64,000 nt of DNA, taken from the NCBI RefSeq assembly GCF_001687605.2, contig NZ_CP016539.2:2386501-2450500 (forward strand), read 5' to 3'. Shown in pieces: positions 27,788 through 57,146 of this stretch (positions are counted from its first letter, which is position 1; each line of letters opens with the position of its first letter). Under the pieces are notes generated by a model, which was given only the letters and a program-made list of their open reading frames with translations, was not told the DNA's origin and made no database searches. This stretch comes from Planococcus plakortidis. Its GTDB lineage: Bacteria > Bacillota > Bacilli > Bacillales_A > Planococcaceae. The translations under genes were made by a program, and so were the position numbers.

Positions 27788-28017
27788 TAGAGATTTCGCT
27801 GTTACTGGTTTGCGTGATGCGAGTGTTTCTATATAAATCACATGACTGGATCGACGCTTAGTGGTTGGAATGATTTCGAAAGCTTGCCTACTTCGCTGTC
27901 GACGTTACATGTTCACTTTGTTATTTCTATTCGTTCATTACAAAACGTGAAGATATTTTGTAACCACTCTACCATTAGAGATGAAGCGGAAAGCGTCGGC
28001 TTACAGCGAAATCTCTA
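27788..28017. repeat. intergenic repeat remnant with 15-bp terminal inverted repeats
   Basis: TAGAGATTTCGCTGT (27788-27802) is perfectly inverted as ACAGCGAAATCTCTA (28003-28017). The right part (27979-28003: GATGAAGCGGAAAGCGTCGG...) matches the end of the dispersed repeat seen near 48.3 and 56.3 kb. The whole 27665-28042 gap has no convincing gene. Confidence 0.6.
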
Positions 28018-30471: not shown

Positions 30472-31506
30472 TTACAACCCGATGGCATCTACAGCGTAGA
30501 CGGCGTCCGCGTTGCTGAAACCTTCAAACTCCAGCTGTTCGATGAGGCCCGCTCTTGAAAATGGCGTGTAGTCCAGGTATTCCTGGGCTTTTTTCACGGC
30601 TTGTTCTGTCCAGTTGACGGAGATATTCTCCACGGCGTATGCTGCGTCTTCGTTGCTGAAGCCTTCAAAAACAAGCTGCTCGATCAAGCCGGATTTCGAG
30701 AAGGCCGAGTACGCCAAATAGTCTTTGGCCTTCTGCACACTTTGTGCTCTCCAGTCGACGTCGATTTTATCGACTGCGTAGACGGCATCCGCATTGCTAT
30801 AGCCTTCGAATTCCAATTGCTCGACTAGGCCGCTCTTCGAGAAGGCGGTAAAGCTGATGTAATTTTTGGCGTGTTCCACTGCTTGCTGCTGGGACAGTGT
30901 TCCGGCTTCGGCAGCCGCTTTTTCAGCAGCGGCTTTTTCGACTGCTTCCTCTTCAGCTGCAATGCGCGCTGCTTCTTCCTCGGCTTCACGTGCGGCTGCC
31001 TCCTCTGCTTCGCGGGCTGCTGCTTCTTCTGCTTCACGTTCCGCTTCCGCTGCCGCCTGTTCTTCTGCTTCTCTCGCTGCCGCTTCTTCCGCTTCTTTTT
31101 CCGCTGCTTCTTCCGCTTCGCGTGCAGCTTTTTCCTCTGCCTCACGTTTTTCCGCTTCTTCTGCTTCACGCTCTGCCTCTTCCTGCGCCTCACGTTCCGC
31201 TTCTTCTTCCGCCTCGCGGGCTGCGGCTTCTTCCGCTTCACGTTCAGCATCTTCATCGCTTGTTTCTTCTTCAGGAGGCGCCTCCGCTTCCACTTCCTCC
31301 ACTGCCGCAAGATCTTCCTCGACAGGATCCGCCGTGACTCCGAACATGACAAATGAAATCAAAACTGCCGGCACAAAATACATGACCGCTTTCTTCCTGT
31401 TGCGACCGGATTCCGGCAGCCACTTCAAGACGAGACCCGGTTTAATCATCCCTATCACCAAGGCAATCACAGAAACCAGAAACAGCAGCAAAAACACATT
31501 TTCCAT
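30472..31506 (-). CDS. membrane protein with Glu/Ala/Arg coiled coil and three Ltp-type repeats
   Basis: 344 residues. Two membrane helices (about 3-25 and 38-58) lead into a long low-complexity helix of AAREAEEE-type repeats (about 75-215), predicted coiled coil or single helix, then three repeats of about 48 residues with the pattern A-x-x-Y-L-x-x-x-x-F-S-x-x-G-L-x-E-Q-L-x-F-E-G-[FY]-S-N. These match the host cell surface-exposed lipoprotein (Ltp) repeat. In a lactic phage the Ltp protein blocks DNA injection of other phages; whether this chromosomal one does is unknown. No lipobox is seen. The ATG follows GAGGAGGAAATGAA. Confidence 0.82.
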   Translation of the reverse strand: MENVFLLLFLVSVIALVIGMIKPGLVLKWLPESGRNRKKAVMYFVPAVLISFVMFGVTADPVEEDLAAVEEVEAEAPPEEETSDEDAEREAEEAAAREAEEEAEREAQEEAEREAEEAEKREAEEKAAREAEEAAEKEAEEAAAREAEEQAAAEAEREAEEAAAREAEEAAAREAEEEAARIAAEEEAVEKAAAEKAAAEAGTLSQQQAVEHAKNYISFTAFSKSGLVEQLEFEGYSNADAVYAVDKIDVDWRAQSVQKAKDYLAYSAFSKSGLIEQLVFEGFSNEDAAYAVENISVNWTEQAVKKAQEYLDYTPFSRAGLIEQLEFEGFSNADAVYAVDAIGL

Positions 31507-34883: not shown

Positions 34884-35047
34884 ATTGTACGAACGGTGAA
34901 GTGAAATTTTCTAGAATCGATCTGTGATTCGGTAAACTACTTACTTCTATAATTAGTGAGCAGAGACCCAAATCCGTAACAAACTCTCTGCAGGCAACAC
35001 CTAGTCACCAGTGGAATATGCTCCTTATTAATCCCTCTCAAACTGGA

Positions 35048-35170
35048 GATGAAGCGGAAATCGGCGACTCCGGGAGGATCAGCGAGACAATTGAGACCCT
35101 GCAGGAGCGCAGCGACGAAGCGGCTCAATGCGAGCCCTCCGGAAAGCGTCCGATTGCTGCGCAATCTCCC
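35048..35170. repeat. dispersed structured repeat, copy B
   Basis: Same family as copies near 48.3 and 56.3 kb. The outer stem is ATCGG (35060-35064) with CCGAT (35150-35154), where the other copies have GGCGG/CCGCC and GGTGG/CCACC. Internal CTGCAGGAGCGCAGCGA and GGAAAGCGTC are shared. Confidence 0.75.
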
Positions 35171-47708: not shown

Positions 47709-48510
47709 ATACTCCCTCTTTCAGCGTGTCCGCCTGAATTTCATCAGGCTTGCGCTTTCATCTTATGCTTAAACTTCGAGCTACGCGTTCCTTTGTCCTG
47801 CCCTAAGCAAAGACAAAGCAAGTTTATCCTTTTAAGTGTACCGGATAAGTTTCGAGTTTTTGTGCATATCCGGAAAAAACAGCTTGCTTCTATCACGTGA
47901 AAACTTAATTAATTTCCAGAAAGATAAATTGTCACGTTTCCTGCACACATTATGCAGAACTTCGGGGTAGCTTAATCATAAGGGCATGATTAAGGCTTTA
48001 AGCTGTGGGTGGTCTGCATCGCGGTACTCTATTGTCTTGAAAGCCAAAAATGTAATCTGCTCGTTTTATATAAGTTGAATTACTATTTTGTAGATTCCAT
48101 CGCAATCGATATTCCGCAAAACAGATGAAAAGCTCGGCTCAACTCTCGCGCTGAACTAATTTAGGCACGTGTCCTAATGGACTTCAGCACTTCGTTGAAA
48201 CAGAGTTGGAAAGTTACTTCCGTTTCTAATCCCCAAGGAGACTGAGCTGTTTTGCTTCATATCTATTGAGTAAGTCAGATGAAAAAGCGAAAGGCGGCGA
48301 CTCCTGCGGGAGCAGTGACGGAGCATCGCGACGGAGCGACATGAGTCTTGAGACCCCGCAGGAAGCGCAGCGACCGAGGAGGCTCAAGCCATGCCCGCGG
48401 AAAGCGTCCGCCTGGAGCGATTTCATCACTTTCTCTAAGTGTATAGTTCAACTTGTATAGTATTCAATTTAATTCCAGGAAGCATACAACTAAGAAAAGA
48501 GGGGTAGAAA
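47709..48510. other. 0.8-kb gene-free region upstream of the DUF1541 lipoprotein gene
   Basis: It holds the ribosome site of the kinase gene, an AT-rich promoter-like stretch, one copy of the dispersed repeat (48278-48427) and the ribosome site AGAGGGGTAG for the next gene. No convincing gene or RNA family otherwise. Confidence 0.6.
48278..48427. repeat. dispersed structured repeat, copy A (most complete)
   Basis: About 150 bp, GC-rich, ends inverted: GATGAAA (48278-48284) with TTTCATC (48421-48427) and GGCGG (48293-48297) with CCGCC (48408-48412). Internal ACTCCTGCGGG and CCCCGCAGGA form a second hairpin. The right-hand 28 bp are nearly identical to copy C at 56.4 kb. Confidence 0.85.
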
Positions 48511-50958: not shown

Positions 50959-51235
50959 AAAAAATCCCGCCTCCAAGACAATTGTCTTGGGGACGAGATT
51001 CCGGTCGCGGTGCCACCCCTGTTCGCCCATATGTCGCCATATGCGCCTCATTCGGTACATGAGATCTATACCTGAGCTCGGTAACGGGAGCAGACGCCGC
51101 ATCATCCCCGTCCGGTTCCGATGCGGTGCTCAGAGGCTTGTTTCACTGGCGCCCTTTTGCCCCGTTTCACCACCCCGGGGCTCTCTAGGAAATGGAATTG
51201 CCAGCTACTGTTCTCGTCATCGCACTGATTTTTGA
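50959..51235 (-). ncRNA. T-box riboswitch with terminator
   Basis: On the minus strand: Stem I base with K-turn GCGATGACGAG and AACAGTAGC (about 51205-51222), the AGAGAG block near 51181, GTGAA and CTCTGAGCAC of the specifier side (51125-51150), and the T-box GGGTGGCACCGCG at 51006-51019. A long stem (AATCTCGTCCCCAAGACAA with TTGTCTTGGAGGCGGGATT) followed by TTTTTT at 50959-51000 is the terminator that competes with the T-box antiterminator. The specifier lies in GAAACAAGCCTC; ACA, CAA, AAG or AGC are all possible, so I leave the amino acid open. Confidence 0.93.
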
Positions 51236-55988: not shown

Positions 55989-56010
55989 TAGGGTAATTGA
56001 ATGATTAAAA

Positions 56011-56137
56011 AAGGTTTTCTAGGGTTCCGCAGCATAGCTGGCCTGGTCCGAGAGAAAACACACAGTACCTGCTGTGACACGGAGGGACAAAAGCCTGGGA
56101 GAAACTGTTTTTACAGTTCTCCCGGGCTTTTTATTTT
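56011..56137 (+). ncRNA. guanidine-I (ykkC) riboswitch with terminator
   Basis: The conserved blocks are all present: TTCTAGGGTTCCGC (from about 56017), CTGGTCCGAGAGAAAAC (56043-56059), ACACGGAGGGACAAAAGCC (56077-56094). The last block leads into the terminator stem AAAGCCTGGGAGAA.../...TTCTCCCGGGCTTT followed by TTATTTT (to 56137). Guanidine binding should prevent termination and switch on the SMR genes at 56.5-57.1 kb, which fits the known guanidine export role. Confidence 0.93.
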
Positions 56138-56490
56138 AAAAGTATTTTATGAAATGACAAGTTAGGCAGCAAGATGTTTCACCAAGCCGCTGTGAACACC
56201 TTACTTAGCTTCACATTACTCTCAATCTTATTACTTTTATTCTTATGCATTCTATTAATCTGGATGAAAAGCGGAAGGTGGCGACTAATGAATAAGCGAG
56301 AGGAACTTGAGCTTGTTCATTTGCGACGCATCTGCCATGCAGATGTGGGAGCAGCTGCGTTTCGAACTGTTCCATCGGCGAACAAGAAGCGGCTCAAGCC
56401 ATGCCCGCGGAAAGCGTCCACCTGCAGCGATTTCATTAGCTGATTTGCTTTTTAGTTTTTCACTTTATTTATCACATAGGAGGAATTCCA
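56138..56490. other. 350-bp gap between riboswitch and SMR genes
   Basis: Contains the dispersed repeat copy C (56263-56437) and, before the ATG at 56491, the ribosome site AGGAGGAATTCC. An 89-codon reading frame across the gap has no ribosome site and crosses the repeat, so I do not count it. Confidence 0.6.
56263..56437. repeat. dispersed structured repeat, copy C
   Basis: Ends inverted: GATGAAA (56263-56269) with TTTCATT (56431-56437) and GGTGG (56277-56281) with CCACC (56418-56422). The right-hand part GGCTCAAGCCATGCCCGCGG and the following bases equal copy A at 48.4 kb; the middle has diverged. Confidence 0.85.
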
Positions 56491-56832
56491 ATGAATCTAC
56501 AATGGGGAAAAGTATTGATCGCGGCATTGTTTGAAGTGGCGTGGGTGATCGGATTAAAGCATGCGGATTCAGTCAGCGAATGGCTGATAACGGTCGTCGC
56601 GATCGCGGTCAGCTTCACCTTACTCATCGATGCCGGAAACAAATTGCCAGTCGGCACTGTTTACGCGGTGTTTGTCGGGCTCGGCACAGCCGGGACGGTC
56701 TTGTCGGAAATCGTGTTCTTCAATGAACCCATCAATGCCGCAAAGCTGATACTCGTCGGGATTCTGCTGCTCGGCGTCATCGGCTTGAAACTCGTGACAC
56801 CGGATGCTAAACCTGAAAGGAGTGAAGCGTGA
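56491..56832 (+). CDS. SMR-family guanidinium exporter subunit
   Basis: 113 residues, four membrane helices. The conserved Glu is in [15 protein letters not shown] near residue 15, and G-T-x-Y-A-V-F-V-G-L-G near 55 is the SMR core. With the riboswitch upstream it belongs to the Gdx/YkkC group that exports guanidinium in exchange for protons. It overlaps the partner gene by one base (TGATG), as in paired SMR systems. Confidence 0.92.
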
Positions 56833-57146
56833 TGGCGTGGATTTCATTGATACTGGCAGGGATTTTCGAAATGGTCGGCGTGGCAATGATCAATAAATGG
56901 CATCACGACCGCAAATGGCAATCACTCGCCATGCTCATCGGCGGCTTTGTCGCGAGCTTCTTATTCTTATCACTTGCGATGGAAACACTCCCGATGGGAA
57001 CGGCGTACGCGATCTGGACCGGCATCGGGGCGTCGGGTGGCGCGATCATCGGCATGCTGTTCTATAACGAATCGAAAGACTGGCGGCGCATCCTCTTTAT
57101 TGCGATGGTGCTTGGCTCTGCCGTCGGGTTGAAGCTCGTTTCTTAA
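56832..57146 (+). CDS. SMR-family exporter, partner subunit
   Basis: 104 residues with four helices. The essential Glu lies in AGIFEMVGVAMINKWHHD near 13; LPMGTAYAIWTGIGASG near 54-70 is the family core. The ATG at 56832 (one codon after an in-frame GTG) uses GGAGTGAAG. The pair should form a heterodimer like YkkC/YkkD; whether only guanidinium or also drugs are exported is open. Confidence 0.92.
   Translation: MAWISLILAGIFEMVGVAMINKWHHDRKWQSLAMLIGGFVASFLFLSLAMETLPMGTAYAIWTGIGASGGAIIGMLFYNESKDWRRILFIAMVLGSAVGLKLVS

Follow-up and report, generated by a model that had tools for sequence, protein, structure and literature searches.

Arm covariation in a dispersed palindromic repeat of Planococcus plakortidis fits mobile DNA hairpins better than a selected RNA

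The region analysed here is a 64,000-nt stretch of the Planococcus plakortidis genome (hereafter the window), in which a dispersed intergenic repeat had been predicted at 35.05, 48.28 and 56.26 kb, with a remnant near 27.98 kb. All four places matched that description. The copies have in common a right-hand block, GCGGAAAGCGTCC..CTGCAGCG, found at 27986, 35139, 48397 and 56407 with at most three mismatches (0 expected, 100 shuffles), and their outer stems indeed read ATCGG/CCGAT at 35 kb, GGCGG/CCGCC at 48 kb and GGTGG/CCACC at 56 kb. The 35-kb copy (35043-35169, forward strand) is a palindromic rod of the T subfamily with outer arms GGAGAT/ATCTCC, matching the covariance model with 116 bits. 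The 56-kb copy (56260-56437, forward strand, 33.8 bits) belongs to the P subfamily and lies between a guanidine-I riboswitch (56008-56103) and two small multidrug-resistance-like ORFs (56491-57146). Its tip (about 56286-56383) has been replaced by other hairpin cassettes; such recurring cassettes (e.g. GCAGCTGGCGCGACAGGACGTCGCGC and GCATCTGCCATGCAGATG) also occur in, or in place of, rod tips at L003, L007, L121, L160 and L166. The remnant (27977-28016, forward strand) retains the outer arms only, and from its sequence looks like a full rod that lost its middle by deletion between two GCGGAA direct repeats. An analogous stub, with the repeat AAAGCG, is present at the 56-kb locus of the relative G021. 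The window also holds a T-box leader (50986-51229, minus strand) and an array of 24-nt direct repeats within an ORF (30922-31251).

The 48-kb copy lies where it had been placed (48278-48427), and that extent was slightly short: comparison with orthologs and a covariance model match of 103 bits delimit a P/Q-subfamily rod at 48276-48427 on the forward strand. It carries an extra 24-nt arm (about 48316-48340) that is absent from the G013 ortholog. Adjoining it in inverted orientation is a second rod, of the U subfamily (about 48108-48263, minus strand, outer arms GATAT..ATATC), which was recognised by eye and by its resemblance to U-type copies, model R2 making no call there. U-P inverted pairs of this kind are present at other loci as well. 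Both rods are enclosed by the inverted repeats of the unit that carries them, AAGTTGAATTA on the left (48072-48082, forward strand) and TAGTTCAACTT on the right (48444-48454, minus strand). These ends are of the AAGTTGAA type, not of the IS1182 type, and the left one is of the same type as that found at a clean insertion in block L443, described below.

A strict DNA pattern retrieved only four copies, hence covariance models were used. Model A3, built from ten own-genome copies, identified 78 rods with a palindromic core of ~127 nt in the 3.26-Mb genome. Each is one long rod whose outer arms vary; next come an internal loop of GGA/GGA type, which is conserved, and a stem of variable sequence (XXXXXCG / CG-T-XXXXX), then the stem TCC-T-GCGGG/CCCGCGGA and the inner stems, up to a small apex that often reads GCGNAGC. 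Rods encode nothing themselves, and 7 of 118 overlapped an ORF of at least 150 aa. All 36 genomes of the genus carry them, with 4 to 58 copies each among the matches listed; a second model counted 83 in G033 and 99 in G004. Of 24 genomes representing other families of the class, 4 had rods, and a DNA pattern matched named hosts all through Bacillaceae and Planococcaceae and also in Sporolactobacillaceae. A very high-scoring rod also appeared in a record named as an actinobacterium (L267, Arthrobacter beigongshangensis REN13), which is probably a mislabelled Planococcus assembly. Other multi-copy dispersed repeats were seen at L443:4245-4885 and L443:19556-19991, with many matches in each of four relatives; the former adjoins T-type rods.

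The original prediction held that the arms covary beyond what random decay would leave, and this was borne out. In the ten copies, 90.3% of pair cells were standard pairs, a value that fell to 38-45% when the partners were slid by 1-3 columns. Double changes affected 12 of 30 pairs, compared with 5.8 expected from shuffles, and none of 500 shuffles scored as high; four S-type copies, taken by themselves, gave seven pairs with double changes. Arm covariation was similar over 80 distinct copies, whose outer stem comprised 522 Watson-Crick pairs, 8 G.T and 4 A.C, and it extended to other genera.

Rods were also compared at sites shared between genomes. A first set held 27 rod pairs, 24 of them of the same subfamily and three of mixed subfamilies, at loci partly chosen by model score. 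Within these 24 pairs, 2.0% of paired and 3.5% of unpaired positions had changed, compared with about 11% in the flanks, and there were 25 one-sided pair changes (G.T 7, A.C 8) and no compensatory one. The estimate was repeated with nearly all G033 matches, which gave 18 own rods with a syntenic G033 locus. At 11 of these loci the rods were of the same subfamily, diverged by 2.65% (8.1% in the flanks) and showed, again, no compensatory change. Another five loci carried a rod of a different subfamily, 36-41% different between flanks that differed by 12-18%; at the remaining two, most of the rod was gone or it could be aligned only in part. Alignments of the swapped sites showed that outer arms and flanks were kept while the inner hairpin was exchanged together with its own matching arms. 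The combination of one-sided changes within subfamilies and whole-hairpin swaps indicates that the covariation arises because each palindrome is inherited, or exchanged for another, as a unit. The prediction was to count as refuted if recent transposition and drift alone explained the changes, and as regards transposition this is largely what we found: at shared sites, double changes occurred only where a whole palindrome had replaced another.

In-place divergence about three times slower than that of the flanks is not what inert relics would be expected to show; it weighs against a reading by mobile elements and leaves room for a host function. The rods might be palindromes kept by purifying selection, site by site, for a role of the DNA in the host, such as in supercoiling, the nucleoid or a replication structure. 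Besides the low divergence at shared sites, this explanation is favoured by the gdx (56-kb) locus, where the rod core is identical in G013, G009, G023 and G024 despite a 5′ flank only 57-79% alike. However, the presence of rods varies among close relatives, and it is common for a rod to be deleted, to have its tip replaced or to have its whole hairpin swapped: at the gdx locus itself, intact (G004, G009, G013, G023, G024), tip-replaced and stub forms are found across species. The conserved set is also small, the larger one having been partly chosen by model score. We therefore regard selection for a host DNA function as unlikely.

Alternatively, the rods could be RNA elements (mRNA stabilisers, terminators or regulatory leaders) maintained by selection on RNA folding. 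Their strong pairing, their conservation above the flanks and their frequent location near gene 3′ ends or within leaders would agree with this. To count mismatches without favouring either type, 207 copies were folded with Watson-Crick pairs only. Over about 5,976 pairs, 43 isolated G.T mismatches stood against 44 of A.C, showing no excess of G.T, whereas the acceptor and T stems of tRNAs from the same genome, under slightly different counting rules, gave 9 G.T and 0 A.C. The SAM riboswitch was equivocal as a G.U control, its variable stem being misaligned. Mapping of the rods against neighbouring genes revealed no strand-specific signal either, with 36 in sense and 34 in antisense orientation to co-directional neighbours, and with 40 convergent and 7 divergent sites. 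Unbiased orientation and equal numbers of G.T and A.C argue against a strand-specific RNA. Adding to this are the lack of compensatory changes at orthologous same-subfamily sites, the free replacement or deletion of the 56-kb tip and the absence of any Rfam match among rod copies, the T-box and guanidine-I being the only families found in the window. An RNA element is thus improbable. Of the selected hairpin that had been proposed, as RNA or cruciform, the RNA part is not supported by these results, and the better fit is a hairpin or cruciform that acts as DNA and is carried by mobile elements.

It is also conceivable that mutational template switching (quasi-palindrome correction) alone keeps the arms matched, neither mobility nor selection being involved. 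Near-perfect arms and equal G.T and A.C mismatches fit a DNA copying process; nevertheless, the 25 one-sided changes at orthologous same-subfamily sites came with no corrected pair, and swaps replaced ~80 nt of unrelated sequence, which makes this explanation very unlikely.

Evidence of mobility was obtained from empty sites. The 48-kb U-P pair is shared by G013 and G033 and absent in G019, G021, G023 and G026, and G004 has the U-type rod only; the empty site is not clean enough for a target duplication to be read. Block L443 holds three insertions that G000 has and the relatives compared lack. Two of them, 222 and 238 bp long, are S-type units, each set between two copies of a terminator of which relatives have just one (for example GTAAAGCCCATCCATTCATTGGATGGGCTTTTT). 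The terminator is duplicated whole: an S-type unit has 33-bp copies of it on both sides, and G004, G011, G033 and G026 have a single one. The remaining insertion, of U type, is bounded by AAGTTGAAC..GTTTAACTT and shows a GTAGCT target duplication. The family resembles MITEs in being short, noncoding and present in many copies, and its S-type and U-type units have terminal inverted repeats and target duplications at clean insertions. S-type and some P/W-type units had ends in common with an autonomous element; for units of the AAGTTGAAC type and for the copies in the window, no such element was found.

Rods were also found inside larger elements. In G021 and G013, IS1182-family elements carry a rod between the left inverted repeat and the transposase gene. 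The type-1 element, with a rod in all six copies examined, encodes a 618-aa transposase that matches PF13751 and, with 447 bits (cut-off 270), NCBIfam NF033551. The type-2 element has a broken transposase frame, whose halves scored 206 and 247 bits against NF033551, and contains a rod at L488:419-544; rods were present in two type-2 copies. One type-2 copy has duplicated terminators on either side and, next to it, an S-type unit whose end repeats are of the same kind. In the P. plakortidis genome itself, a type-1 relic with its rod lies at about 2384537-2385422, the alignment of the P-type copies L038 and L040 to the type-2 element continues past the rod, and 9-10 of 54 rods have IS1182-like ends (0.1-0.2 expected). 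Most rods, those of the window included, have no recognisable IS1182 ends, and PF13751 transposases were present in only 8 of 36 genomes, though every genome has rods. IS1182 elements as universal carriers, or the rod as a regular part of that family, were rejected, because six IS1182-family elements from other Bacillales plasmids had no rod; the link is thus lineage-specific. Leaders inspected in plasmid elements (L489-L494) showed terminator-like hairpins at or near the left end, upstream of the transposase. The type-1 copies L481-L486 have complementary feet on their two sides, such as AAAAGCT/AGCTTTT or AAAAC/GTTTT, which would be left if each copy had taken the place of a terminator hairpin.

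Other sources of mobility fared poorly. Movement of REP-like repeats by a RAYT (Y1 tyrosine transposase) might be suspected from the dispersal of the palindromes, their inverted pairs and the occurrence of Y1_Tnp genes in 20 of 36 genomes, yet genomes without such a gene (G004, G006, G016, G024, G035) have more than 50 rods, and none of the 27 Y1_Tnp loci searched with 1.5-kb flanks contained one, so that a RAYT origin is highly improbable. The Y1 transposase-like gene of those 20 genomes (L176-L200, ~200 aa) is usually single-copy and unlinked to rods. A phage or viral origin was rejected, with no viral contigs and no phage matches, as was a plasmid replication palindrome: among the plasmid matches looked at, three adjoin zwf-gnd genes and the fourth is a 1.6-kb linear piece.

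Taken together, these results make it rather probable that the rod is an imperfect palindrome of ~127 nt acting as a DNA-level structural module of mobile elements, MITE-like and partly borne by IS1182-family elements, with matched arms inherited or swapped whole. Short non-autonomous MITE-like units would spread the rods, and in at least two lineages autonomous-type IS1182-family insertion sequences contain one at the position described above. Copying or exchange may act on the rod as a unit of folded or cruciform DNA, so that arms would be replaced whole rather than repaired base by base. The folded DNA, as a cruciform or single strand, might be the feature recognised, and IS1182-like transposases might do the swapping; by analogy with IS1272, a member of the IS1182 family, transposases acting on hairpins would plausibly help. 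Gene conversion between rods could provide another route. A broader and tentative possibility is that Bacillales hairpins form a pool of interchangeable cassettes, in which IS1182-like, hairpin-recognising transposition replaces or duplicates folded palindromes, exchanging rods in place and copying terminators whole. If so, covariation in palindromes would be a signature of structure-dependent transposition and not of RNA function. Compensatory base changes are a standard argument for a functional RNA, and here a large and widespread family covaries strongly, apparently through mobile DNA palindromes. False RNA signals of this kind can be filtered out simply, by counting G.T versus A.C mismatches and by comparing orthologs in place.

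A search of the literature with the rod sequence matched only unrelated papers, and known systems were compared by their features. REP/BIME palindromes moved by RAYTs are likewise intergenic and often form inverted pairs, but measure 20-40 nt and, unlike rods, are linked to RAYTs. The bcr1-bcr3 repeats of Bacillus cereus are also short, dispersed, intergenic and MITE-like, with mobile-element features (PMC3446304, PMC6542083); bcr1, compared by description only, differs in that it is reported to be confined to the B. cereus group and to be associated with a TTTAT motif. Bhal-1, a 74-bp stem-loop family of Bacillus halodurans, is intergenic, structured, otherwise undescribed and from the same bacterial order (PMC2267715); judged by description, it could be the same family as the rods. 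Among IS1182-family insertion sequences, IS1272 in particular is a close parallel; it is reported to target hairpins and terminators, deleting the target stem-loop and making no duplication (PMC5678879, PMC4923244). In this analysis, two rod-bearing elements matched the IS1182 transposase model, and the type-1 feet are those expected from hairpin replacement. In contrast to IS1272, most rods are unattached to such an element, and with the S-type units and the type-2 copy the terminator is duplicated in full, which has been depicted solely as a hypothetical route, pathway b (PMC5678879). The duplicated terminators look like natural examples of a result so far only proposed for hairpin-targeting transposition.
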